Shown in pieces: positions 11,122 to 44,920 of a DNA stretch of 64,000 nucleotides; the stretch's first letter is position 1, and every line of letters begins with the position of its first letter. The position numbers and the translations under genes are program-made. The stretch covers positions 3,782,001-3,846,000 of the forward strand of contig NC_003552.1 in assembly GCF_000007345.1 (NCBI RefSeq), in the 5' to 3' direction. The notes under the pieces are model-generated. The model saw only the letters and a program-made list of their open reading frames with translations. It was not told where the DNA came from and did no database searches. The DNA comes from Methanosarcina acetivorans C2A. GTDB taxonomy: Archaea > Halobacteriota > Methanosarcinia > Methanosarcinales > Methanosarcinaceae.

Positions 11122-11292
11122 TTATCTCTTTACCAGCATAAGGGAAAAAGAGAGGATAAGAAGCGCTGCATAGAACATTACACTTGGATCAAATCTGTCA
11201 TACAAAGACAACCAGGTGTATACCAGCATTGATCCTGAAAACACTGCTAAAACTATAAGTCCGACATATTTTGCGTCTACCATTTTTTTCAT
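11122..11292 (-). CDS. Small two-helix membrane protein, 56 aa, unknown
   Basis: Not a recognised family. The reading starts at ATG 11292-11290 (an alternative ATG three codons later is at 11283) and ends with TAA at 11122-11124. It has two hydrophobic segments, YVGLIVLAVFSGSMLVYTWL and VMFYAALLILSFSLMLV, separated by SLYDRFDPS, and a basic KR end. GTGAGTGATG upstream can act as ribosome binding site. It lies 161 bp downstream of the last gene of archaellum cluster 1 on the same strand, so it may be read from the same transcript or have its own promoter. Coding nature rests on the clean start, hydrophobic pattern and codon use. Confidence 0.6.
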   Translation of the reverse strand: MKKMVDAKYVGLIVLAVFSGSMLVYTWLSLYDRFDPSVMFYAALLILSFSLMLVKR

Positions 11293-11434
11293 CACTCACT
11301 TTGCATGTTGTTGCACAATTTATGTTTGTTTTTTAGGTTTGGTTTCTGTTTCAGGTTAGATATCAATCGGATCAATCAAATCAGTCCGATTAATTAATTA
11401 GAGTACTGTAAATTCAGCTCCGGTTCACCTCATG

Positions 11435-11454
11435 AACGGTTTTTATAAACCGTT
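11435..11454 (-). terminator. Hairpin at the end of archaellum cluster 1
   Basis: AACGGTTT-TTAT-AAACCGTT is a perfect 8-bp inverted repeat that touches the stop codon of the last cluster gene. No long T run follows on the minus strand, so it may be a processing or attenuation structure rather than a terminator. Confidence 0.35.
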
Positions 11455-12449
11455 TATAAGTTATGACCCGTAAATTGCCTGTATTTTTTCAGATCTTTGA
11501 GCACCCCCTCAAGGTCGGATTTCATCAACTTCAAATCCAGATTTTCGCCCTGCATACCATCCATGAAATTGATCTTTTTCTCATTCGAAACTATGATATC
11601 GTTCTTGAGTGAATTTAAGAAGCTGTCACTTTCGTCCTCGAACTTTATCTCGGCAGGGTTGTCGTTAAAAGTAAAGGCATTTTCGGCAAGTTCACCGTCC
11701 GATCCTTCGACTTTAATCGCAAATTCACTCCCGTCGAAATTAAAATCATTATCGAAAGATGAATCGAGTTCAGAAGACATCTCCCCGAAGAATTGCTCTG
11801 TCGTATCTGCTTCAAGACCATTGCTTACAGGATTATTGCTCATTAAAGTGCCAGTATTGGACATTTTAGTTAGGAGGTCGTCATCAAAATTTAACTCCTC
11901 TCTTTTGGATTCTACCACTTTATCAAGCAGGTTAACTTTTTCAGCTTCGCTTAACTTTTCATCTGCATCTTCAGAATCAGATAAGGAAGCGGGCTTTTCT
12001 TCATCTTTTTTATTCCTGTGAAGCAGGGCGGAGAAAAGCAGAGAAATTTTACTGTTCAAGCTCGCAAAAAGCCTCTGGAGAGCACCTTTTGCTTTCAGGA
12101 ATACTGTTCCCACTTTGGGAAAAGGATTTTTTCCGGAAGCTTTTTTGACCGAACCTGACTTTTTCCTTCCCGAACCTGACTTTTTCCGGCCTGAACCGGA
12201 GCTCTTCGGGATTAAACTTATAATTTTTTTGACAGAGTAGGGGAAAAGCTTCAGGCCCCCGAAGCTGAAAGTTTTTCTTTTCGGGCTCAGGTTAGGAAAG
12301 AGTTTAGACTCATCGGGATTTACTGAAGTTCCGTCTTTACTTTTATATCTGTCATATAGAGTTGCTGTTCCCATTATGACCAGAGTTACGAAAATACCTA
12401 CAAAGATAGTGAAATTCGTTTCATATATGGTTACCAAGTCCAGATTCAT
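11454..12449 (-). CDS. Unknown archaellum-cluster protein after ArlJ, membrane-anchored, 331 aa
   Basis: No known family recognised. The N-terminus has one membrane helix (FTIFVGIFVTLVIMGTATLY, about residues 13-32) followed by a very basic stretch with repeated SGRKKSG units (about residues 84-105), then a long acidic, probably disordered tail. The last 30 residues contain a hydrophobic-charged segment, DLEGVLKDLKKYRQ. Its ATG overlaps the arlJ stop by 4 bp (ATGA), so it belongs to the operon and is likely co-translated. Cluster 2 also has an unrelated-looking protein at the same place (45038-45919) whose end, ELIIDLKNVKALL, is comparable. A role beside the ArlI/ArlJ motor is inference from position. 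Confidence 0.75.
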   Translation of the reverse strand: MNLDLVTIYETNFTIFVGIFVTLVIMGTATLYDRYKSKDGTSVNPDESKLFPNLSPKRKTFSFGGLKLFPYSVKKIISLIPKSSGSGRKKSGSGRKKSGSVKKASGKNPFPKVGTVFLKAKGALQRLFASLNSKISLLFSALLHRNKKDEEKPASLSDSEDADEKLSEAEKVNLLDKVVESKREELNFDDDLLTKMSNTGTLMSNNPVSNGLEADTTEQFFGEMSSELDSSFDNDFNFDGSEFAIKVEGSDGELAENAFTFNDNPAEIKFEDESDSFLNSLKNDIIVSNEKKINFMDGMQGENLDLKLMKSDLEGVLKDLKKYRQFTGHNL

Positions 12450-14068
12450 ACACCTCCTGCGAGACTATCAAGTACTCCATCAAAGGAGAAGGCCATTTTC
12501 ACCAGTGGAGGAATTATAATCATCAGTATCCCTGAAAGGGTAAACATAAACATGCCATAATAGATTGCCAGATACATCGGCCCCCCCTTCACCGCAACAA
12601 TTGCAAATATATTTGCAAGGGTCAGGATAATGGTCACAATCACAACGAATTGGCCCAGCAATTCGATCGGGACCCCGCCAAATATCCCCAGATTCATGCC
12701 CCCCATGCCTCCGGGTATACCTTCAAGTTCGGACCCGGTGATGTCAAACTGGGTAAAAAGGGAAGTTATGATAGTAGAAAAGATCGTCAGGATCTGGCCT
12801 ATGAATAGAAGAAGGGCAACCATCGCCACATGCAGGGGGATGACGAGGCTGGAAAATCCTTTGGCTATGCGCTCCCTTTTCATTCTCAAAAGAACCAGTT
12901 CAAGATTGGACGAGCTCACAAGCTCGCCTACTACTTCCGCATTGCCCCCTAAATTTACTGCATCTACAAACACACTTGTCAATTTGTAGATCAAGTAGCT
13001 GCCCGTCTCTCCTACAAACCTTCCCCAGCACAGCGCAGGGTCCAGCCCGGATGCCAGTTTCTTGTAAAGCTCCTGGCTCATATCTCTAAGCTCCCCAAGG
13101 TTTTTGGGATCGATCTTCAGGAGGGCTTTTGGTACCGTTAGCCCGGACCCGCTTACAATGGACCCGAGGCTCCGGATAAAGGTTGTAAAGCATTCATCCC
13201 TTTTGTTAATTTTATCGATATCTTTATTTGCCGCCATTCCGACAGGCATCAGAATAACTCCTGCCAGAACCATTCCGACTCCTTTAATGTCAATGAAAAA
13301 ATCGACTGAACCGATAAAAGCCGGTATAACAGTGAGCAATATAACAGCCAGGGCAGACAGGGCAATGGAAAGAGGAGCCCACTTGTAGATGTAGACCTGC
13401 TCCTGTGATTTTATGCTTAAGCTGTGGACTTTTGAATCTTTCGGAGAAGCTTTAAAAAGTAGACCTACCCCAAAAAATGCCATGAAAAATATGATGAACA
13501 TAGTGGAATAAAGCGTATCTGCCGGATCCCCCATATTATATAAAATTACTGAAAGTAAGATAATAATAGCTACGAGAGATGTGGAGACAAGCAGAGCTGT
13601 GTAAGCGTTTGACCATTCTTTGGTGGTTTCGAGGTCTCTTTCGAACTCGTCTTTTCTTTTTGTCTTAAATAATTTCCATTCCTTCGTGAGGAATTCGCTA
13701 TCAGGTTCTCCTGCCGCTATGGCGTTTGATAACCTGTTAAGAAGTTCCCGCATTCTCTCATGCGTTACTTTTGTGGATATGAGCTCGCAGGCATTAGCGT
13801 AATCATAGTGCCAGTGCTGGGCCAGCTCTTTAATCATATTGAAATATTTACTCGGGCAGTATTCCTTCTTGTCCGAGATGCTCGTGAATATTTTGTCCCT
13901 TGTCAGATTAGCAGTTGAGATTGACGCCATATAAGTAAGAGAAAACAGCATATCGTTACTCATATAGAGTTCTTTCTGGTAATGTTTGAATCTAAGAGCA
14001 AGCTGGTCTAAAAGGGGCTGTGATCCGGACTTTTTGTTGAAAAGGTTTTTTATCGCAGAGCTTTCCAT
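12446..14068 (-). CDS. arlJ: Archaellum membrane platform protein ArlJ (FlaJ), cluster 1
   Basis: Polytopic membrane protein on which the ArlI ATPase acts to assemble and rotate the archaellum. It has a cytoplasmic N-terminal part, helices around residues 165-215, a second group near 240-290 and a C-terminal group in the last 130 residues, with the two cytoplasmic TadC-like domains between them. The start is placed at the ATG at 14068 with GAGGT 8 bp upstream; an in-frame TTG at 14077 is also possible. It lies just 11 bp after the arlI stop and overlaps the next gene by 4 bp. Length of about 540 aa fits the family. Confidence 0.92.
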   Translation of the reverse strand: MESSAIKNLFNKKSGSQPLLDQLALRFKHYQKELYMSNDMLFSLTYMASISTANLTRDKIFTSISDKKEYCPSKYFNMIKELAQHWHYDYANACELISTKVTHERMRELLNRLSNAIAAGEPDSEFLTKEWKLFKTKRKDEFERDLETTKEWSNAYTALLVSTSLVAIIILLSVILYNMGDPADTLYSTMFIIFFMAFFGVGLLFKASPKDSKVHSLSIKSQEQVYIYKWAPLSIALSALAVILLTVIPAFIGSVDFFIDIKGVGMVLAGVILMPVGMAANKDIDKINKRDECFTTFIRSLGSIVSGSGLTVPKALLKIDPKNLGELRDMSQELYKKLASGLDPALCWGRFVGETGSYLIYKLTSVFVDAVNLGGNAEVVGELVSSSNLELVLLRMKRERIAKGFSSLVIPLHVAMVALLLFIGQILTIFSTIITSLFTQFDITGSELEGIPGGMGGMNLGIFGGVPIELLGQFVVIVTIILTLANIFAIVAVKGGPMYLAIYYGMFMFTLSGILMIIIPPLVKMAFSFDGVLDSLAGGV

Positions 14069-14079
14069 CCAAACCAACC

Positions 14080-15933
14080 TCAGAACTGAATCCTCAGCAT
14101 CCCGGCCTTTGTAATCTTTGCGACCGTGTTAAAAAAGTCCCAGTAATTTACAATTCCTTCACTGTCCAATCTCTCCAGAATTCTTGCCCTTTTTTCAATT
14201 TCATCGTAAATTACCTTCTTTTTCTTGCCAGGGATTCCGAGCCTCGTGGCGATTTTGTTTTCAAGGATGTACGAACTTCCCATAGCACTGAAAACATGCG
14301 TATCAGTAACAGGATCCCAGGAAAAGGCTTCAATAAAGGAAATTCCGCCTTTATCCGGGTTGTATCCGAGAACCTCGTTTATACTGAGGACTCTTCTCAC
14401 AAGCTTGCCGTCCGGTCTCCGTACTGCAGATTGGATGATGACAAAGTTGAGGTTGTCCACATACGTTTTAGGAATGTTTATAGGATCGGCAGTAAGCCTC
14501 TGGATCAGTTTCTCAACGGTTGCAGCATGGAACGTTGACATGACGGGGTGTCCGGTCTGCATAGCCTGGAATGCGACATTACCTTCAACTCCTCGGATTT
14601 CTCCTACAAGGATATAGTTTGGCCTCTGCCTCAATGCCGCTTTGAGAAGGTCGAACATCGTAACGTCCGATCCGCTGCCTTCTCCTATCCCCCCGCCCCT
14701 TGTACTGCCTCTTGTTGTTTCCCGGGTCCAGTTTTTGTGCGGGATCTGCAGTTCAGGCGTATCTTCGATTGAAACCAGTTTTGACTCGGGATTTACAAAC
14801 GCTGTAATCCCGTTCAATGTGGTCGTCTTACCACTTGCGGTTTCTCCGCATATGAAACCGCTCATTCCTTCCCCGATCAGGATCCACAGGTAAGCTGCCA
14901 TCCTGTAATCCAAGGTTCCGCCTTTTATGACCTGAAGAATACTGAACGGAATGTCAGCAAACTTTCTTATGGTAAAATTACTCCCGTTTTTACTGATATC
15001 ATCCCCGAAAACAATGTTAATTCTTGACCCGTCCGGAAGTGTGGAGTCCACTATGGGGTTTTTGAAAGTGATGGGCTTTCCGATCCTTTCTGCGAGCCTG
15101 ACGATGTACTGATTGAGAGCGTCATTATCGTTGAATTCTATTACGCTCCTGAGACCCTTGAACACCTTATGTTCAATGAAGATGGGCCCGAGACCATTGC
15201 AGGTAATATCTTCAATTTTGTTGTCATTTATGTAAGGGTCAAGGAAACCCACACCGATTTTATCCCTTATAATCGAGTACTTCAGCGCTTCGTACTGTTC
15301 TTTTTTTACATAAATGTGATTCTTCCCGGGATCTTCCTTTGATGGAAAAAATTTTGCCCCCAGTTTTTTGATCCCGGAATCAACCCCTGCAGCAGAAATA
15401 TCAACCTGTTTTTTATTTCCTATTACGCAAATGTCATCGAGAGCTTCTTTAAGTATCCTTTCTTTTTCTTCCAGATTTTCAGGGTCGAACTCTATTCCTG
15501 TAAGGTGGTCTACAAGTCTGGCTTCCAGCTCTTTGATGAGACTCCCGACTCCGGTAAGCAGTATGGGCTCAATCGGGATATAGAAGTTCCTCACATCGTT
15601 TTTGTTCGGGTAAATGTGCACATATATCTGGTCATTGACCTTGTATATGAGATTTGGATTCTCTATTTCACCATGTTTTGACTCAATCCCGGAGACATAT
15701 CTGGGTATACCCATCGTATCTATGGGCAGGATATGGAGATACTCCAGGAGATGCAGGTTTTTTTCAACCTCCGCTTTCATTTCCGGAGGGAGGAGCTTGT
15801 AAAGGTTGCACGTTTTCAGGTTTGAGTGGTCATGCCCGTCATACTTTTTCGGTTTAAACGGAAAATTAGTATATATTCCTGCGTTAAGTGCACAACCGTG
15901 CTCAGTACTCAGCTTTTCCTCAATACTATCCAT
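14080..15933 (-). CDS. arlI: Archaellum motor and assembly ATPase ArlI (FlaI), cluster 1
   Basis: Hexameric secretion-type ATPase (GspE/VirB11 superfamily) driving archaellin export and rotation. Walker A is GETASGKTTT at about residues 362-371; the Asp box follows as SIEDTPELQIPHKNW; Walker B is YILVGEIRGVEG, and the His box is GHPVMSTFHAA. A long N-terminal domain binds the membrane side. At 617 aa it is slightly longer than typical. It is close in pattern to the cluster 2 copy at 41526 and less so to the ATPase at 62209. Confidence 0.95.
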   Translation of the reverse strand: MDSIEEKLSTEHGCALNAGIYTNFPFKPKKYDGHDHSNLKTCNLYKLLPPEMKAEVEKNLHLLEYLHILPIDTMGIPRYVSGIESKHGEIENPNLIYKVNDQIYVHIYPNKNDVRNFYIPIEPILLTGVGSLIKELEARLVDHLTGIEFDPENLEEKERILKEALDDICVIGNKKQVDISAAGVDSGIKKLGAKFFPSKEDPGKNHIYVKKEQYEALKYSIIRDKIGVGFLDPYINDNKIEDITCNGLGPIFIEHKVFKGLRSVIEFNDNDALNQYIVRLAERIGKPITFKNPIVDSTLPDGSRINIVFGDDISKNGSNFTIRKFADIPFSILQVIKGGTLDYRMAAYLWILIGEGMSGFICGETASGKTTTLNGITAFVNPESKLVSIEDTPELQIPHKNWTRETTRGSTRGGGIGEGSGSDVTMFDLLKAALRQRPNYILVGEIRGVEGNVAFQAMQTGHPVMSTFHAATVEKLIQRLTADPINIPKTYVDNLNFVIIQSAVRRPDGKLVRRVLSINEVLGYNPDKGGISFIEAFSWDPVTDTHVFSAMGSSYILENKIATRLGIPGKKKKVIYDEIEKRARILERLDSEGIVNYWDFFNTVAKITKAGMLRIQF

Positions 15934-15966: not shown

Positions 15967-16683
15967 TTATACCTTTGCCTGTGAGATTGGAATAATCTTT
16001 AAACCGAAACCGGGCTGAACTTCAAAACTCACTATATTGCCCGTGCTTTTCTTTGCGCCTCTTATTTTCGAGACTTCCATAACGCTGATATAGCGGTCGG
16101 TGAGCTGTTCCTTTCTTAAAAACAGGTGACAATCGCATGCTGACCGTATTCTGACTAGAGTGTCTTCCCTGAAAGCATGCTGGTGCAGAGTGATAAAGAT
16201 TGTATACCCTTTATCACATAAATTTTTCAAATTTGTAAGGAATTCAAGGATGTTGTCCTCATCGGAATAAGTAGTAAACATCGTGAGAGAGTCAATAATG
16301 ATAACTGTTTCTCTGATATTTTTAATGTGAGTTGTAACGAGATGCAGAGTGCCTTTCATTTGCTCGGAAGTCCATTCCACACCTTCGAGATGGACAGGAA
16401 AAATCCTGAAATAACCCCAGCTGTAAAAGTCCGAGATATCGAGGCTCAGGCTGTCCATCTGAGCCAGCATACTTTTAATAGTATTCTCGGTTGAATAGTA
16501 GGCAATTCTGTGAAGCTGGTTCAGGCCTCCATACACCATTTGTTGGCAGAGTACACTCTTTCCGGTATCGTTTTCGCCTTCGATGAGCACAAGAGAACCG
16601 AGAGGGATTCCCTCACCCAGTTTTTTATCAATTTCGTCATTGCCGCTTGAAATAATCTTATTTTTATCTTCACTTGCTCCCAT
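15967..16683 (-). CDS. arlH: Archaellum KaiC-like ATPase ArlH (FlaH), cluster 1
   Basis: RecA/KaiC-like protein that binds ATP and docks on the motor with ArlI and ArlJ. Walker A is GENDTGKS; the Walker B-like segment is TVIIIDSLTMF; the C-terminus ends in the family pattern PGFGLKIIPIS. The ATG at 16683 has AGGTG 6-7 bp upstream and follows the arlF stop by one base; an upstream in-frame GTG at 16692 would overlap arlF and is less likely. As in other ArlH proteins the second catalytic features of true KaiC are reduced. Confidence 0.92.
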   Translation of the reverse strand: MGASEDKNKIISSGNDEIDKKLGEGIPLGSLVLIEGENDTGKSVLCQQMVYGGLNQLHRIAYYSTENTIKSMLAQMDSLSLDISDFYSWGYFRIFPVHLEGVEWTSEQMKGTLHLVTTHIKNIRETVIIIDSLTMFTTYSDEDNILEFLTNLKNLCDKGYTIFITLHQHAFREDTLVRIRSACDCHLFLRKEQLTDRYISVMEVSKIRGAKKSTGNIVSFEVQPGFGLKIIPISQAKV

Positions 16684-16684
16684 T

Positions 16685-17158
16685 TTATACACCTGCCTCG
16701 TGCTCTGCGGAAGAGACGATACCGTTTTCAGTGATAATTTTTACAATGAAACTGTCATTGGAGTCGATGTCGATTAATAGTTCGATGTTAATACTTTCAT
16801 GCGGGTCCAGAATCCCCGGATTCAGGAGATCTGTATCAGGTGTTATACTGTACTGAGATTCGTTCAAATACGACACTTTACCGTCTTTGACCAGGAGAAC
16901 ATCCCAGAGATCGAAGTTGCTTAATTTGGTCTCACCGGTATTTGCAACAGTGAAACTGGTATGATTTGTTGAAACGTTGAAGACTATATTCTGGACTTCG
17001 ATACGGGTCTGAAGCCTGTCCATCATTGTCTGATGAGCTGAAACGTATCCGTGATAGGAAGACTCAACAAGAGTATTGGTCCCCATTGTCAGAGTACCTG
17101 CAACAACCAGAATCGTTCCGACTACAAAGAACGCTACGATTATTGTATCGAGGCCCAT
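16685..17158 (-). CDS. arlF: Archaellum stator-type protein ArlF (FlaF), cluster 1
   Basis: One N-terminal membrane helix (TIIVAFFVVGTILVVAGTL) followed by an extracytoplasmic beta domain with the FNVSTNHTSFTVANTGETKL segment typical of ArlF/ArlG. In other archaea ArlF binds the S-layer and ArlG. The frame is open to 17245, but the ATG at 17158, four bases after the arlG stop, gives the correct family N-terminus. Confidence 0.87.
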   Translation of the reverse strand: MGLDTIIVAFFVVGTILVVAGTLTMGTNTLVESSYHGYVSAHQTMMDRLQTRIEVQNIVFNVSTNHTSFTVANTGETKLSNFDLWDVLLVKDGKVSYLNESQYSITPDTDLLNPGILDPHESINIELLIDIDSNDSFIVKIITENGIVSSAEHEAGV

Positions 17159-17162
17159 GATA

Positions 17163-17636
17163 TCACGTTGAGAAGGTATCTGATGTTGATACCCCATTGT
17201 ACAGGAAAAAGGTAAGTTTATAAATGTCACTTGGAAGGGCATCAAGCGCTATTGTTACTTTGATAGTTTCTCCGCGATTCCAGGTGTCTCCGTCTCCGTT
17301 TTCGAGAGTGTAATCCCAGGACGGAGCTGAAGCAGCTTCAAGTCCGGGGTTCCAGTAGCCTGAGGAAGATACAATAAAGACGTCACAGTACTGCAGCTGT
17401 GAAAGGGGTATATCTGAAGACCCTACGTTTTTTATCCAGACATAAACGTCATTCCCATCGGGATAAATGAAGATGATATCGATATCGGTTTTAAACTGGT
17501 CTTCCATGCTACGGGCAACGGAGCTATAAGATTCGGACAGACCATATACGGAAGGAAGGACGGCATTTACAAAAGCCACTGCAGCTATAACACTCACAAT
17601 TACGAGTATTGCTGAAGTTATCACTTCCTTTGACAT
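17163..17636 (-). CDS. arlG: Archaellum stator-type protein ArlG (FlaG), cluster 1
   Basis: N-terminal pilin-like membrane helix (VITSAILVIVSVIAAVAFVN) and an extracytoplasmic beta-sandwich containing VYVWIKNVGSSDIPL, the family hallmark. In Sulfolobus, ArlG forms a filament capped by ArlF that anchors the motor to the S-layer. It is immediately upstream of arlF. An 84-bp gap separates it from the ArlD/E-like gene. Confidence 0.87.
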   Translation of the reverse strand: MSKEVITSAILVIVSVIAAVAFVNAVLPSVYGLSESYSSVARSMEDQFKTDIDIIFIYPDGNDVYVWIKNVGSSDIPLSQLQYCDVFIVSSSGYWNPGLEAASAPSWDYTLENGDGDTWNRGETIKVTIALDALPSDIYKLTFFLYNGVSTSDTFST

Positions 17637-17720: not shown

Positions 17721-18392
17721 TTATTTGCCATCGAGGAGATGCCCCAGTACCTTGGAGTCAAGAGACTGGTCTTCCGGGTAAAGAATATGATAAAGCCTGT
17801 ACAGATCTATCACTGCATCATCAAGGTTGTTGTTTTTGTTCAGGATCTCAATGATTTTGATAATGATTTCTTTAATCTCCCCGGGAATATAGCCCAGAAG
17901 GGAGAAGACATCAATTAATTCCGTTATAGCTTCATGGTCATATTTCTCGACCATGTCCTTGCTCCAGACGATAGTCCTGTAGAAGGAAATAGGATCGATA
18001 AATTTGGAATCACCCTTTTTAGACTGTTTTTTAGCAGCCTTTCTCAGATCCTCAAAGAGATTTTTTGGAACCTGCTCCATTTCCAGGCCAACTTCATCAG
18101 TCTCCTCCTCTCCTTCAATTTCTTCATATTTATGAGGCGGGGGATGATCTTCTATTGATTTGGGATTTACTATGGCACCGGAAATGTTAGCAATACCCTG
18201 AATATTCTGGAAAGGATTTTCAAGCACCCCCATCGTTTCCCTTATGTCCATGAGAAGAGTCTTTATGGAGCCTTTGATCTCGGTCACCTCTTCTTCAAGG
18301 CTTGCAACCCTGGACTCTATAGTGTCGCTCTCAGCTGAAGCTACAATACTATCAATCATGGACTGGTCAAAGGATTCCCCACTATTCATCAT
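17721..18392 (-). CDS. ArlD/E-like archaellum adaptor protein, cluster 1
   Basis: Cytoplasmic protein with an N-terminal coiled-coil segment (IESRVASLEEEVTEIKGSIK), a variable middle and a C-terminal domain of about 90 residues of the FlaD/E type (HEAITELIDVFSLLGYIPGE). In euryarchaea ArlC/D/E form the switch ring that receives the chemotaxis signal through CheF. Only one such protein is encoded here; no separate ArlC was found. Start is at the double ATG at 18392 with GGGTGAT before it; the frame reaches back to 18431. Confidence 0.82.
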   Translation of the reverse strand: MMNSGESFDQSMIDSIVASAESDTIESRVASLEEEVTEIKGSIKTLLMDIRETMGVLENPFQNIQGIANISGAIVNPKSIEDHPPPHKYEEIEGEEETDEVGLEMEQVPKNLFEDLRKAAKKQSKKGDSKFIDPISFYRTIVWSKDMVEKYDHEAITELIDVFSLLGYIPGEIKEIIIKIIEILNKNNNLDDAVIDLYRLYHILYPEDQSLDSKVLGHLLDGK

Positions 18393-18465
18393 ATCACCCA
18401 ACTGTAGCGTTAAAAAATGAAATAATGGCACTCAAAGGAGTGTCATTATTGCTTGAATTTTAGTT

Positions 18466-19038
18466 TTAGACGAGAGTCATTATTGCACTGATTGATCCGG
18501 GTGCAGTCCTGTGAATGGTGTAGGAAGCCCCCTGAGGTGGTTTGATTTCAAGCTGGAACTCGTTGTAAGGTCCTATCCCGTAACTACTCGTATCAATGCT
18601 TACATCAAATTTCTCAGCTCTGTCTATAAGATTGTCTGTGTTAGCGTTATACTTGGTGGATATCGTGAATCCATCGTCAAGTGTCAATTCAGTTGGTGCT
18701 GTATCTGGATCTGAATAAACTATGAGAGTTTTGTCCATATCAACTGATGAACCGCCTGAAGTCAGCTGCAAGCATAGAGTAATACTATCAATTGAATAAT
18801 CTGCAGGGTTAGCTGCAGTAGTGTTACCTCTGGCAATTACATCTCCACTTAATTCGACACTGCTGCTTGCCTGCTGTACACCCGTGTGCACGACTTCCTG
18901 ACTTTTCTGGGTAGTATAAAAGCCCGCCCCGAGCATAACGTAGCTGAAAACCGCAGCCACGACTACAAAAGCTACAAGAACAATTGCTGCTTCAAGTCCA
19001 GTGAATCCTTTTTCATCTTTTGAAAATGTGTTCCACAT
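18466..19038 (-). CDS. Archaellin 2 of cluster 1
   Basis: Archaellum filament subunit of 190 aa. Class III leader MWNTFSKDEKG followed by the mature start FTGLEAAIVLVAF; processing by the prepilin peptidase is expected after Gly11. The first 65 residues are nearly the same as in the neighbouring archaellin, as in the Methanospirillum type, with Glu at mature position 5 as in type IV pilins. It has a possible N-glycosylation site (NTT). It lies 11 bp after archaellin 1. Confidence 0.93.
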   Translation of the reverse strand: MWNTFSKDEKGFTGLEAAIVLVAFVVVAAVFSYVMLGAGFYTTQKSQEVVHTGVQQASSSVELSGDVIARGNTTAANPADYSIDSITLCLQLTSGGSSVDMDKTLIVYSDPDTAPTELTLDDGFTISTKYNANTDNLIDRAEKFDVSIDTSSYGIGPYNEFQLEIKPPQGASYTIHRTAPGSISAIMTLV

Positions 19039-19049
19039 TACAGATCACC

Positions 19050-19697
19050 TCAGTAAACCGGATAATAGTTGTCCGTGACAAGTGCAGCAGGCAATGTCCT
19101 TGAAATTGTAAGAACTGCACCCTCTGGGGGTTTTACCTCAATTTTGAATTTTTCATTCACAGTAGGTAAAGTACCAGTCCCAAGAAATGTATCTAAATCA
19201 ATTACGACTTTATACTTTTCACCTTTTTCAAGTAGGTTGTCATCATTGGTGACAATTGTACCGTTATACACCCATCCGTATGTGTCACCCCAGGCACCAT
19301 CATCAGGAATGGCAGCCGGCCCTTTAGTAACAGGAGTTGCAGTTGTGTCAACAGCATATTCCTGTGTTACAAAATCATCGTCATCCGTGTAGGAAACAAT
19401 TGTCTTATCCAGATCTACAGATGTTCCGCCTGCAGTATTCGTTACATAAAATGTAATCTGACTTGCATTGCCTCCATAAGCGTCTCCTCTAACAATTACA
19501 TCACCGGAAGGTGCAATGCTACTGCTTGCCTGGGTCACACCCGTGTGCACGACTTCCTGGCTTTTCTGGGTTGTATAGAACCCCGCTCCCAACATGACGT
19601 AGCTAAAAACTGCTGCTACGACGACAAAGGCTATCAGCACAATTGCAGCTTCAAGCCCTGTAAACCCTCTTTCATTTTTGATTAATCGGTTCCACAT
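19050..19697 (-). CDS. Archaellin 1 of cluster 1
   Basis: First gene of archaellum cluster 1; filament subunit of 215 aa. The leader MWNRLIKNERG is cut after Gly11 to give FTGLEAAIVLIAF. The hydrophobic helix continues through FSYVMLGAGFYTTQKSQE. The outer domain differs from archaellin 2 by insertions and has sequons NAS and NGT. AGGTGATTC precedes the ATG, and a TATA box lies about 60 bp upstream. Confidence 0.94.
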   Translation of the reverse strand: MWNRLIKNERGFTGLEAAIVLIAFVVVAAVFSYVMLGAGFYTTQKSQEVVHTGVTQASSSIAPSGDVIVRGDAYGGNASQITFYVTNTAGGTSVDLDKTIVSYTDDDDFVTQEYAVDTTATPVTKGPAAIPDDGAWGDTYGWVYNGTIVTNDDNLLEKGEKYKVVIDLDTFLGTGTLPTVNEKFKIEVKPPEGAVLTISRTLPAALVTDNYYPVY

Positions 19698-27242: not shown

Positions 27243-28043
27243 TTATCTCTTGGATATTTTATCAACCATACTTACCCCATAAGGGGTCAATTCGATTTCT
27301 TTTCTGATTTTCACAACCTTAGCCAGGCCGGAATCAACAAGGCGGTCATAATAAGTATTCAGCTCATCCGTTGACATCCCGACAATGTTTTCAATTGATG
27401 CGAAGTCCAATCCGGAATAGATCAGAGTGAGAATCTGCATTTCATCTTCAGACAGGGTAATTGCAGGTTTATGTTTTTCAAAAAGTCTTTGCAGATAACC
27501 TTCAAGCATTTCCAGCGTACTTTCCGGGCAGAAGACAAGGCTTGTCACTACACTACTTTTTTCAACATGAGACAGGACAAGAACTTTTCTCTGTTTCCCG
27601 CCGACATTTCTGAGATCGGTTTTAACGGACCCGAGATTTTCAATCGGAATCCTCTTCTGGTTTTTGGAAGACAAAAACCAGAATCCTTCATCGGTTACAC
27701 TGAAATACCCTTTTTCCCACCTGGCACTCGAGGAAACAACACCACCTACAGTAGCAGATTCCAAAAAAAACACTGCAAACTTATCTGCTTTGAGGTTGAA
27801 TGCAATGAATTTGAAAACCTGTTGATGAAGATTAGGAGGAAATCTAAGGATTACTTTGTCCTCTTTTTTAATTTGAACGCAACTAATGCCCTCCACTTCA
27901 ACTTCTTCAAGGTCCTCTATCTCCTTGAGGGGGATGTTCCTTTTGCCTATAACAAGGTTGTTATCGGTAACCACCAGTTCTACATCCACCCATCCACCAT
28001 CATAAGTTTTGATAGAAGCTCGAAGGTGGACTTTTTCGGTCAT
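27243..28043 (-). CDS. cheF: Archaeal taxis adaptor CheF (DUF439)
   Basis: Links CheY to the archaellum switch complex. The two-part beta-rich body (ASIKTYDGGWVDVELVV at the start, then RIPIENLGSVKTD) and the C-terminal winged-helix-like part (ITLSEDEMQILTLIYSGLD) match the CheF family, known from Halobacterium to bind CheY and the ArlCE proteins. The ATG overlaps the cheW stop by 4 bp. Its presence argues that the che operon controls an archaellum rather than some other output. Confidence 0.87.
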   Translation of the reverse strand: MTEKVHLRASIKTYDGGWVDVELVVTDNNLVIGKRNIPLKEIEDLEEVEVEGISCVQIKKEDKVILRFPPNLHQQVFKFIAFNLKADKFAVFFLESATVGGVVSSSARWEKGYFSVTDEGFWFLSSKNQKRIPIENLGSVKTDLRNVGGKQRKVLVLSHVEKSSVVTSLVFCPESTLEMLEGYLQRLFEKHKPAITLSEDEMQILTLIYSGLDFASIENIVGMSTDELNTYYDRLVDSGLAKVVKIRKEIELTPYGVSMVDKISKR

Positions 28044-38530: not shown

Positions 38531-39238
38531 ATGGAGCTGGACAAAAGAGTAAACGAAATCGAAACCGAACTGAAAATAATGAAAGGGGAGATTAAGGAGT
38601 TACTCACGGACATAAGGGACCTGGTGAATAAAAATGAGAATCCTTTTTGCAACATCCAGAGCATTGAAGCATTGAAGCTTAAGGTACCGGAAAAAGAAGA
38701 ATGCGTAGATAAGCAGCCAGATGTGACCTGCAATGGAGAAAGCGGACTGAAGCCTGCGGCAGGAATTTCGGAGGCAGGGGATCAAAATGTAAAAAACAGT
38801 GAAAATTCTCCAAAATTGGCCAGTTCCGGTCAGGAAAATCCCGTACAGGATGTCCAGAAACAGGAAATGAACAGGCCTGAGACGGAAAATTCCCAACAAA
38901 TTGACACATTCACGCTGGTTGAACTTATGCGCTGGGTGGATTATGCTGTCAGAACAATAGGACACAACAACCTCGAAGAACTGCTGAACCTCTATACTCT
39001 TACCGGACATCTTCCTGAAGAAATTAAAGTTATTATAAAAAATATTGCAAACCTTTCGATTGAAGAGCCCGTAGGAGAAGACGGGGTCAGTATGAAGGAC
39101 AACATCATGGTGCTTTCGCAGTTGAGTGCGATCCTGAACCCAGAGGACTTCAAAAAGAATATTCAGCCATTTTACGAAGCCTCTTCAGGTTGGAAAGGGA
39201 AAGAAAAAGAGAAGAAAGCAGGGCTTGTCTTCAACTGA
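38531..39238 (+). CDS. ArlD/E-like archaellum adaptor protein, cluster 2
   Basis: Counterpart of 17721-18392. Coiled-coil N-terminus (DKRVNEIETELKIMKGEIKE), a low-complexity middle, and the C-terminal FlaD/E-type domain (WVDYAVRTIGHNNLEELLNL then GHLPEEIKVIIK). It probably forms the switch part of the second motor. No ArlC gene is found next to it. Confidence 0.82.
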   Translation: MELDKRVNEIETELKIMKGEIKELLTDIRDLVNKNENPFCNIQSIEALKLKVPEKEECVDKQPDVTCNGESGLKPAAGISEAGDQNVKNSENSPKLASSGQENPVQDVQKQEMNRPETENSQQIDTFTLVELMRWVDYAVRTIGHNNLEELLNLYTLTGHLPEEIKVIIKNIANLSIEEPVGEDGVSMKDNIMVLSQLSAILNPEDFKKNIQPFYEASSGWKGKEKEKKAGLVFN

Positions 39239-41525: not shown

Positions 41526-43361
41526 ATGGAAGCTCTGCCTTTTGACCCATTGCCTGCACCGGAGGATGGAGGACGTTCCAGAGAAGAAATTTACTCCAGC
41601 CTTTCTTCGGAAATGCAGGAGTTTGTCAGCAGGGAAGAAAACCATCATATCCTTGATTATATCTGCAGGCTTCCGACGGATGAGATCGGGTTTCCGGAAT
41701 TCTATCCGAGAATTTCGAGAACCATTAAAAGCATCAAACACCCCAACCTGATTTATCCTGCCGGGAAAGGGCTTGCAGTCCACATATATCCTGATAAGGA
41801 AGACGTAAGAAACTATTACATTCCCATAGAACCCTGTCTTTTCCAGAAACTGGATATTAAATTTGAGGAAGTAGAGAAGTTACTCATCGACGTGATATAT
41901 GACAAGGATATTCCCACAAAAGACCCTGAAGAAAAAAAGAGGTTCCTCGAAAAAGTTCTTGAAAAGACCTGCGAAGTGAGAAAAGAACTAAAGAAAAATT
42001 CCGAGACCTCGGAAGGAAAACGAAAGGAAAAGAAAAACGCTTCAGGGAAAGAAAAAAATTCCCCAGGAGAGGAGACCTACAGCGAAAAAAACGGAATCTT
42101 CGGGAGCCTGAGGGAAGCCGGCAAAATCTTCAAAACGAGAAAACTGCAGAAAATTCCCGTGACGTCTGAGGAATTCGATGCGATCAAATACATGATGATA
42201 AGGGACAAGGTGGGAATGGGAGTGCTCGAACCTTTACTGCTTGACTCGAATATAGAGGATATCAGCTGCAGTGGGCTTGGCAGGATCTTTGTTGAACATA
42301 AGGTATTCTCCTCCCTTAAAACAACAATCTCTTTTGAGGAAATCGAGGAACTCAATTCTTTTGTCATACAGATGTCCGAAAAAGTAGGAAAACCGATCAC
42401 CTATAGGGACCCGATAGTTGATACCGCGCTTCCGGACGGCTCAAGGATTAATATCGTATTCGGAGAAGACGTATCAAAGCGAGGGAGTAATTTTACCATA
42501 AGGAAATTTATGGGAGTCCCTATTTCAATCCTCGAACTTGTTGAGTTTGGAACAATCGACTACACAATGGCTGCATACATGTGGATGATGCTCAGGGCAG
42601 GAATGAACTGCTTCATTTCAGGAGGAACTGCTTCCGGAAAGACCACAATGATGAATGCAGCGACTACTTTTCTTCCTCCGGAATCCAAAATAGTCTCCAT
42701 TGAAGATACCCCGGAACTGCAGGTGCCCCATAAGAACTGGACCCGGGAGGTTACAAGGACTACAAGGGACGACAGCGGCTCGGATGTCTCCATGTTTGAT
42801 CTGTTAAAGGCCGCCCTGCGCCAGCGCCCGAATGAGATTATGATCGGAGAGATCCGGGGGGTTGAAGGAAACATTGCTTTTCAGGCAATGCAAACAGGAC
42901 ACTCTGTAATGTCCACCTTCCATGCCGCCTCGGTTGAGAAACTCATCCAGAGGTTGACAGGAGACTCCATAAATGTCCCCAGAAGTTATGTGGACAATCT
43001 GAATGTGGTTCTGATCCAGAGTGCCGTAAACATCCCGGGAAAAGGGCTTGAAAGAAGAGTCCTGAGCATAAACGAAATCGTAGGCTACGATTCCGAGAGC
43101 CAGGCTTTTAACTTCATGGACATTTTCAAATGGGACCCTGCTACGGATACCTTCAAGTTTACCGGGAAAAACAACTCTTACCTGCTGGAGCATAAAATTG
43201 CTCCTCGTATGGGGATTCCTGAAAACCAGGTCCGAAAAATTTACTCCGAACTTGACAGAAGAGCAAAAATCCTCCGGAAGATCCACCAGGCAAACATTAC
43301 AAATTTTTATGACATTTTCGATACCCTGATCCGACTTGAGGAGGCAGGACTGATATCATGA
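41526..43361 (+). CDS. arlI: Archaellum motor and assembly ATPase ArlI (FlaI), cluster 2
   Basis: Secretion-superfamily ATPase, 611 aa. Walker A GGTASGKTTM at about residue 366; SIEDTPELQVPHKNW; Walker B MIGEIRGVEG; His box GHSVMSTFHAA. A Lys-rich linker (about residues 155-190) is absent from the cluster 1 copy. GAGGAG precedes the ATG. It overlaps arlJ by 4 bp. Confidence 0.95.
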   Translation: MEALPFDPLPAPEDGGRSREEIYSSLSSEMQEFVSREENHHILDYICRLPTDEIGFPEFYPRISRTIKSIKHPNLIYPAGKGLAVHIYPDKEDVRNYYIPIEPCLFQKLDIKFEEVEKLLIDVIYDKDIPTKDPEEKKRFLEKVLEKTCEVRKELKKNSETSEGKRKEKKNASGKEKNSPGEETYSEKNGIFGSLREAGKIFKTRKLQKIPVTSEEFDAIKYMMIRDKVGMGVLEPLLLDSNIEDISCSGLGRIFVEHKVFSSLKTTISFEEIEELNSFVIQMSEKVGKPITYRDPIVDTALPDGSRINIVFGEDVSKRGSNFTIRKFMGVPISILELVEFGTIDYTMAAYMWMMLRAGMNCFISGGTASGKTTMMNAATTFLPPESKIVSIEDTPELQVPHKNWTREVTRTTRDDSGSDVSMFDLLKAALRQRPNEIMIGEIRGVEGNIAFQAMQTGHSVMSTFHAASVEKLIQRLTGDSINVPRSYVDNLNVVLIQSAVNIPGKGLERRVLSINEIVGYDSESQAFNFMDIFKWDPATDTFKFTGKNNSYLLEHKIAPRMGIPENQVRKIYSELDRRAKILRKIHQANITNFYDIFDTLIRLEEAGLIS

Positions 43362-44920
43362 CTTTTGTGCAAACAGTTCCGAACTTAAGCCTGAATGCAG
43401 CAAAACAGGGAGCCGAAAGCTACTTTAACATTGCCAGAAAGCTGAAAAATACCAGAGTTGTTGAAAGAGTCAATGACGATATGCTCTTCCTGCTGATATA
43501 CATGGCTGCGATTTCAACTGCGGATATAGAAAGGGACAGGATCTTCTATTATGCAGGTCGCCAGAAAGAGTACGAAGCTTCGAAATATTTCAGGCAGATC
43601 CATATCCTCGCCTCGAAATGGGGGTACGAATATTCAAAAGCCTGTCAGTACATTTCTCAGAAATTAAAGGACGTTTATCTTTCAAAATTTTTGGTAAGAA
43701 TGGCAAATATCCTTTCTTCCGGAGAGCAGGAAAAAAATTTCCTGAAGCAGGAGAAAATCATAAGGGAAGAGATCTACTCCAATGAGTACGAACGAAGTGT
43801 CGAATCTCTGAAAAAATGGACCGACGGCTATAATGCCCTGATGGTATCCGTAACCCTCGTTGTTACCATAATTCTGGTTTCAGTCATGATCTATAATGTC
43901 ACGAATATAGAAGCAATTGCTTTTCTACTACAGGTTCTAATTTTTTTCATAAGCGGGCTTGCCCTTTACATAATATATAAGGCAGCTCCTGCCGAAAAAA
44001 AGGTACATGCGCTCCGCTTCAAATCAAAGGAACAGGAGCAAATAAGGCTATTGAGTCGGGTTCTGCTCCCTATCGGAGCGATTGTTCTCATTGCCCTCAT
44101 TTTGCGCGGAACTGAACTGAAATTTATTCTGCTCGGAGTGACCGTTTTTACACTTCCTATAGGCATTATTGCTATGGAAGACGATCGAAAAATCAATGAA
44201 AGGGACAGTAGTTTTCCGACTTTTATAAAGACCCTCGGAACTCTTGCCGGAACCACCGGAATCACTATCCGGAGTGCAATGGAAAAACTTGATAGGGAAA
44301 ACATAGGCTGTCTTAAGCCAGGAGTTGAAGAGCTGCATTCCGGCCTTTCCATGGGGTTTAAGTCAAAGCTCTGTTGGGAAAAATTCATAGGAGAAACAGG
44401 CTCCGAACTGATCAACAGGTGCTCAAGGATCTTTACCGATGCAGTAGAACTTGGAGGGGACCCTGCGGAGATAGGGAACATAGTCTCGAATTCAAGCCTG
44501 GCAATCGTCCTCCTAAGGATGAAACGGCAGATGGTCAGTTCAGGCTTCAGGGGGCTTGCCATAGCCCTGCATGCTGTTATGGTAGGGCTCTTGGTCTTTG
44601 TATTGGAGATGATTTCCAAATTCAGCTGGCTTGTCTCCAAGATGAACGAATCATATATATCCATGGAAGGAGGAACAGGAGGAATTTCTGCGATGGGGAT
44701 GAGCATGTTCGACGTAGCCGAAAGCATACCCATGCTGTACAGGTTAACCTTCTCAGTGATAATTATCCTCACCGTTTCAAACACGCTTGTGGTGAAGATC
44801 GTGGAAGGCGGAGGGGATTACAAACTCTTTTTCTATGGGGGCCTGATGTCCGGAATTTCAGGACTCTGTATGATCCTTATTCCTCCGGTTGTATCGAGTG
44901 TATTCACATTCCAGATATGA
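43358..44920 (+). CDS. arlJ: Archaellum membrane platform protein ArlJ (FlaJ), cluster 2
   Basis: Polytopic partner of ArlI, 520 aa, with the same helix layout as the cluster 1 protein and matching segments (DRKINERDSSFPTFIKTLG against DIDKINKRDECFTTFIRSLG). Its ATG overlaps the arlI stop (ATGA). Confidence 0.93.
   Translation: MTFVQTVPNLSLNAAKQGAESYFNIARKLKNTRVVERVNDDMLFLLIYMAAISTADIERDRIFYYAGRQKEYEASKYFRQIHILASKWGYEYSKACQYISQKLKDVYLSKFLVRMANILSSGEQEKNFLKQEKIIREEIYSNEYERSVESLKKWTDGYNALMVSVTLVVTIILVSVMIYNVTNIEAIAFLLQVLIFFISGLALYIIYKAAPAEKKVHALRFKSKEQEQIRLLSRVLLPIGAIVLIALILRGTELKFILLGVTVFTLPIGIIAMEDDRKINERDSSFPTFIKTLGTLAGTTGITIRSAMEKLDRENIGCLKPGVEELHSGLSMGFKSKLCWEKFIGETGSELINRCSRIFTDAVELGGDPAEIGNIVSNSSLAIVLLRMKRQMVSSGFRGLAIALHAVMVGLLVFVLEMISKFSWLVSKMNESYISMEGGTGGISAMGMSMFDVAESIPMLYRLTFSVIIILTVSNTLVVKIVEGGGDYKLFFYGGLMSGISGLCMILIPPVVSSVFTFQI

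Follow-up and report, generated by a model that had tools for sequence, protein, structure and literature searches.

A candidate membrane tether encoded beside arlJ in arl2-type archaellum clusters

We analyzed a 64,000-nucleotide stretch of the Methanosarcina acetivorans C2A genome (hereafter the window), which carries two archaellum loci with a che region between them (Table 1). Locus 1 encodes, in order, two archaellins, an ArlCDE-like protein, arlG, arlF, arlH, arlI and arlJ, followed by a gene for a 331-aa protein. This arrangement has the archaellin-hyp-G-F-H-I-J order of arl2/fla2 clusters, which are defined by G preceding F in the text of PMC1914349. The product at the hyp position of locus 1 (hyp1) and its second-locus counterpart (hyp2) are related to each other by sequence comparison, and among 11 members of the hyp1/hyp2 family three match Arch_fla_DE (best 5.7e-5), three match FlaC (best 0.006) and one matches ArlX weakly (0.073), at a level that unrelated coiled-coil models also reach. 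These weak model matches, together with the position described in PMC1914349, support a weak assignment of hyp1 as ArlCDE-like.

Table 1. Archaellum-related features of the window
Feature	Positions	Strand	Basis
Candidate arlJ-linked membrane tether, 331 aa	11454..12449	-	ORF; orthologs; profile matches
Single predicted membrane helix, residues ~12-32, N-outside/C-inside	12354..12416	-	Hydropathy; conserved columns; family flank charges
21-bp tandem repeat, 2.3 copies, coding SGRKKSG	12149..12197	-	Variable among orthologs
Conserved middle box, residues ~180-199	11853..11912	-	Ortholog alignment; A1-A3 profile alignment
Family-wide C-terminal box	11481..11645	-	Box profile match E 2.3e-16; helical in tail fold
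arlJ, locus 1	12446..14077	-	NF004703, 807 bits
arlI, locus 1	14080..15933	-	NF058587
arlH, locus 1	15967..16692	-	NF052589
arlF-like, locus 1	16685..17245	-	Best model NF052590 ArlF, E 1.8e-9, under its cut-off
arlG-like, locus 1	17163..17636	-	Best model NF052591 ArlG, E 2.8e-11, under its cut-off
ArlCDE-like soluble protein ("hyp1" of Desmond 2007)	17721..18431	-	Weak model matches; position per PMC1914349
Two archaellin genes	18466..19697	-	18466-19038 Pfam; 19050-19697 sequence likeness
cheF-like gene, che region separating the archaellum loci	27243..28043	-	cheF-like ORF
Second-locus ArlCDE-like protein ("hyp2")	38531..39238	+	Related to hyp1
arlJ, second archaellum locus	43358..44920	+	arlJ model match, 642 bits
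Second-locus protein, 306 aa, without predicted membrane helix	44999..45919	+	Possible relative via C-terminal box only

The start of the 331-aa gene sits in CGCAGGAGGTGTATGAATCTG, where a ribosome-binding-site-like AGGAGG lies directly before the ATG within the end of arlJ and the ATG overlaps the arlJ TGA by 4 nt (gap -4). The features that the initial annotation had read from the letters alone are confirmed: an open frame of 331 codons, an ATG overlapping arlJ, one N-terminal hydrophobic segment by hydropathy and an acidic tail, with a net charge of +22 over residues 33-150 and -25 over residues 151-331. The SGRKKSG repeats to which it also drew attention are present as a short tandem and are not conserved. 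In an alignment of 12 Methanosarcinaceae orthologs (A1), the N-terminal membrane segment, the middle box and the final ~55 residues are conserved, while the SGRKKSG stretch is variable or absent and the linker is for the most part variable, so the repeat is not a defining feature of the protein. The AlphaFold model of the full-length protein was unusable (mean pLDDT 32), and the last 70 residues, folded alone from the single sequence, are modelled as a single long helix (pLDDT 81 in the best model, 42-68 in the other four). No Pfam, NCBIfam or PDB entry is a credible relative of the protein.

A single-sequence search found the 331-aa gene in 12 of 59 genomes, the M. acetivorans genome included, and every one of the 12 arlJ loci of the same subtype as locus 1 in those genomes (L021-L032) has the gene as its next ORF; absence beside arlJ in close relatives, which the initial annotation had named as refuting its reading, did not occur for arlJ of the NF004703 type. 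Of 392 genomes sampled across the phylum, 131 contain a match to the NF004703 model at E<=1e-100, and ORFs after these arlJ genes encode N-terminal membrane segments, an acidic linker and a similar box at the end. Two further protein sets were aligned from such ORFs, A3 (ten proteins of 209-292 aa, one segment each) and A4 (proteins of 355-386 aa, two segments each), and hhalign comparison gave P values of 3.6e-21 for A1-A3, 8.4e-8 for A3-A4 and 0.0021 for A1-A4. In the least biased test, the A3 profile, built without any Methanosarcinaceae member, was run over six frames of the M. acetivorans genome (5,751,492 bases) and returned the 331-aa gene as its sole match at E<=10 (6.8e-11). Across the order, A3 matches 17 of 185 genomes, identical to the 17 that A1 finds among the 111 genomes of the family. 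The 331-aa protein is not a Methanosarcina orphan and belongs to a phylum-wide family tied to NF004703-type arlJ. Although its low-complexity sequence and lack of a database family might suggest a spurious or neutral ORF, that reading is refuted by conservation, with many genera keeping an open frame, a fixed place and conserved ends, and retains practically no probability. Weak, scattered hits on unrelated models were taken as chance, for example a fucosyltransferase model (two of the 12 A1 members, best 0.0029) and a NirdL-like HTH (seven of the ten A3 members, best E 0.015). The PDB matches were taken as compositional: A1 gave three (best 0.02), and A3 gave 332 sequences at E<=1 (best 0.0036), among which cytochrome b562 fusions aligned with the acidic linker predominate.

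We measured linkage to arlJ type with a box-only profile made from 30 of 32 seed proteins (two lay outside the seed pattern and two of the 30 were shortened), used in place of an iterated profile that spread into the low-complexity linker. The 610 downstream ORFs searched came from 125 loci with NF004703-type arlJ, a set that leaves out the second-locus loci L051-L057, the long loci L100-L105 and several other arlJ places, and from 10 control loci taken as arl1, in which arlJ fits NF004704 better and exceeds its cut-off in all 10. A C-terminal box was found in a downstream ORF at 99 of the 125 NF004703-type loci, which are called arl2 by their ArlJ model rather than by checked gene order, versus 0 of the 10 NF004704-type loci, which cover just 1245-1497 nt after arlJ (best reversed decoy E 0.81). 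The statement in the initial annotation that standard euryarchaeal archaellum sets lack the protein is upheld for the 10 NF004704-type loci and falls for NF004703-type clusters, of which it is a regular part across the phylum. Among the 80 loci outside the seed set the box recurs in 62, and in 95 of the 99 positive loci the box ORF starts within -187 to +36 nt of the arlJ stop. The 26 loci without a box comprise seven of the second-locus Methanosarcina type, three of genus g21, L040 with short ORFs only, 14 of families f10/f28 and L137, where the gene lies ~2 kb before arlJ.

Searched over 392 whole genomes, a 32-box profile matched 108 times in 105 genomes. Of these matches, 102 share the strand of arlJ and lie no more than 3.1 kb downstream of it; the boxes were drawn from arlJ loci, so this count shows specificity relative to the rest of the genomes and is not an independent discovery. 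Two of the other six matches are in genomes with no arlJ on record (G405, where the match stands at the start of a contig, and G213), and the remainder are G472 with arlJ on another contig, a second short copy in G416, a box gene upstream of arlJ in G319 and a weak match in G266 (E 7e-4). The family is very probably a component of arl2-type archaella. The short copy in G416 (G416:C8:14209-14346) lies in a 110-aa frame ~12 kb from the arlJ-linked copy of that genome.

Across the 99 box proteins, membrane segments are predicted once in 43 and twice in 53, and the three proteins without a segment are those of L110 (frameshifted-looking), L164 (split by insertion) and L198 (f10-type). The helical box of ~50 residues stops 1-32 residues short of the C-terminus in 99/99, and the linkers, with a median of 24% D+E and 10% K+R, are probably flexible. 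Charges flanking the segments were first counted over unequal stretches, agreeing with a cytosolic tail in 40/43 one-helix and 49/53 two-helix proteins. A short N-terminal flank set against 20 residues after the helix favours that result, and the count was therefore repeated with equal lengths: K+R after the helix exceeded K+R before it in 30 of the 33 one-helix proteins with at least three residues before the helix. Two-helix proteins carry K/R before the first helix in 47 of 53 cases and have a median of 0 and a maximum of 1 such residue within the hydrophobic pair. These flank charges suggest that one-helix proteins are N-out and two-helix proteins N-in, so the tail should be cytosolic in both forms. 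The initial picture of a membrane-anchored protein of no known family, coupled to arlJ and with a probably cytosolic tail, is supported.

By prediction, the 331-aa protein has the layout of ArlX (FlaX) of Crenarchaeota/Thermoproteota, an ArlJ-linked protein of the archaellum cluster with one N-terminal helix and a cytosolic remainder; many of its relatives have two helices. It differs from ArlX in possessing one short conserved box where ArlX has a ring-forming domain, and in a gene position after arlJ and beside an ArlCDE-like gene, whereas the ArlX gene stands before arlG. ArlCDE (FlaC/D/E) and the hyp1/hyp2 proteins of fla2 clusters are likewise accessory parts of the same cluster, but ArlCDE are soluble whereas 96 of the 99 box proteins have one or two membrane segments, and hyp1/hyp2 sit between archaellin and arlG. 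Pfam and NCBIfam scans returned no match to ArlX or ArlC/D/E, the families that the initial annotation had proposed as targets of a sensitive profile search. Pfam ArlX (PF24151) and NCBIfam FlaX (NF058591) are unmatched by the window protein and A1 (E<=1) and by A3 members (E<=0.1 in Pfam, E<=1 in NCBIfam), the A4 members, scanned in NCBIfam, gave no FlaX match (E<=0.1), and FlaC (PF05377) and Arch_fla_DE (PF04659) are unmatched by the window protein and A1 (E<=1) and by A3 (E<=0.1). On these scans homology of the family to ArlX and to ArlCDE was rejected, and hhalign comparison of the hyp1/hyp2 family with the box-protein families was not significant (P 0.068 to 0.82).

The shared gross layout of an N-terminal helix and cytosolic remainder, and the mutual stabilization of ArlX and ArlJ in Sulfolobus described in PMC8978795, would suit a functional and possibly diverged homologous ArlX counterpart that self-oligomerises into a cytosolic ring around ArlI/ArlH. 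This reading is improbable in view of the unmatched ArlX and FlaX models and of a chain that is mostly low-complexity linker with a conserved C-terminal box of just ~50 residues, and the cluster already has an ArlCDE-like protein, FlaX itself being counted among diverged FlaC/D/E in the text of PMC4858521. ArlCDE are thought to replace ArlX while being without its membrane helix (PMC8978795), and as locus 1 also encodes an ArlCDE-like protein, the 331-aa protein is not simply "the ArlX". What survives of the initial proposal, a scaffold around the ArlI/J motor like ArlX, is the scaffold or tether role, which is our best reading, and not a model-level match to ArlX or FlaX.

We consider the best explanation of the family to be a hitherto undescribed arl2 component that acts as a membrane tether beside ArlJ, to which we give a probability of roughly 0.45. 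Such a tether would be made together with ArlJ and fixed in the membrane by a single helix at its N-terminus (many relatives have two), its flexible charged linker would extend into the cytosol, and the ~50-residue helical box near its C-terminus would bind a soluble component of the motor, with the ArlCDE-like ring/switch protein of locus 1 or ArlH as the most probable partner. It would thereby supply the membrane anchor that ArlCDE proteins are without, and soluble ArlCDE and tether together would do the job of the single-helix ArlX of Crenarchaeota. In its way of working only, the putative tether may be likened to PilN-type anchors of type IV pili. PilN is anchored in the membrane and docks a soluble component of the motor through a short cytosolic peptide; this peptide is N-terminal, and PilN has an extracytoplasmic domain. 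We infer both the anchoring role and the partner. Gene order cannot separate the ArlCDE-like protein, ArlH, ArlI, ArlJ and CheF as partners, and a tether running to ArlCDE or ArlH in this manner is tentative, at somewhat less than even odds.

In the account of PMC8978795, ArlCDE seem to bind the core motor by way of ArlH, and a polar cap is proposed to serve as anchor in place of one in the membrane, which is lacking. A membrane-fixed, box-ended protein produced along with ArlJ from the same clusters fits the role of this missing anchor. That the family is the anchor of an ArlCDE-type switch/stator complex, with the job of ArlX split over a soluble ring and a flexible, possibly multivalent tether carrying chemotaxis input and torque reaction, is a bolder extension and on balance unlikely.

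CheF (DUF439), a distinct protein with its own Pfam model PF04283, is frequently encoded next after the box protein: the next ORF is cheF-like in 51 of the 71 box loci whose retrieved sequence shows another ORF of at least 90 aa after the box gene, and PF04283 matches in 3/3 scanned. This neighborhood keeps alive the alternative that the protein is a chemotaxis adaptor holding CheF or CheY at the motor, as do D-D-x-L-[LI] acidic peptides in the linkers (43 matches in 97 linkers versus a shuffled mean of 14.4 and maximum of 30 in 300 shuffles, from sequences that are not independent). In the window, however, cheF lies ~15 kb from the 331-aa gene, and the second Methanosarcina che region is without CheF as described in PMC2666748, yet the second-locus protein keeps a possible box; we regard an adaptor as a low-probability reading. 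Equally low is the chance of an assembly or stability factor for ArlJ, a co-translational partner outside the working motor. The gap to arlJ of -44 to +36 nt in 89 of 99 loci would agree with this, and an acidic linker could cover the loops of ArlJ that are basic according to PMC8978795, but the part common to all groups is the far C-terminal box and the G319 gene lies upstream of arlJ.

The archaellum parts published in the texts of PMC8978795 and PMC4858521 are archaellins, ArlC/D/E or ArlX, F, G, H, I and J. Passages of these two papers and of PMC1914349, figures and supplements excluded, name no gene after arlJ and describe no mutant in one, and no post-arlJ gene is named in passages of PMC12488501, PMC11607397, PMC2666748, PMC8546582, PMC12369344 or PMC3942078; figure 2 of Desmond 2007 may show such a gene as an unnamed hypothetical. 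An additional component, encoded next to arlJ in the majority of clusters with one ArlJ type throughout the phylum, would change this parts list, and a tether would make testable what anchors the helix-less ArlCDE. M. acetivorans has been manipulated genetically, and its archaella have been linked to interspecies electron transfer (PMC8546582).

Some arlJ loci carry divergent proteins in the same place. The second-locus protein of the window has a charged, coiled-coil-like N-terminal half and is kept after arlJ in the second Methanosarcina locus. The f10/f28 loci (L191-L207) have mostly short acidic proteins after arlJ, in several followed by a response-regulator-like gene, and in g21 a 78-aa box-like ORF follows one arlJ (iE 0.009). 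In second-locus-type proteins a degenerate C-terminal box is suggestive of that of the family (hhalign P 9e-4, with 1/200 column shuffles as good), and the f10/f28 box is likewise degenerate (P 8e-4, 0/200 shuffles as good, 14/15 proteins used), both stretches having been chosen after looking. The full-length second-locus profile is not significant against A1, A3 or A4 (P 0.29, 0.16 and 0.25), and neither A3 nor the 32-box profile matches the second-locus gene in its own genome. On this sequence evidence the second-locus, f10/f28 and g21 forms are probable to possible relatives of the family. A membrane helix is predicted in 0/17 second-locus-type and 0/15 f10/f28-type following proteins, so membrane anchoring is not universal. 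The idea that an amphipathic membrane-binding N-terminus replaces the helix in second-locus or f10/g21 proteins was dropped, because just L210 (0/200 shuffles as good) and L191 (4/200) stood out among 15 proteins, with L037 at 13/200.

A 57-aa hydrophobic ORF at 11122-11295(-), ~160 nt past the stop of the 331-aa gene, has no Pfam match; it was not found in L100 or L125 (genus g24) and recurs in most of the searched Methanosarcinaceae loci of the NF004703 arlJ type. A lipoprotein-like gene stands directly after arlJ in L116, L128 and L137 (part-length in L137), displacing the gene for the box protein. In L164 (G265:C1:2380310-2383900), that gene is split by an insertion with a minus-strand ORF that reads as transposase-like, and in the congener L168 it is intact, making L164 a possible natural knockout.
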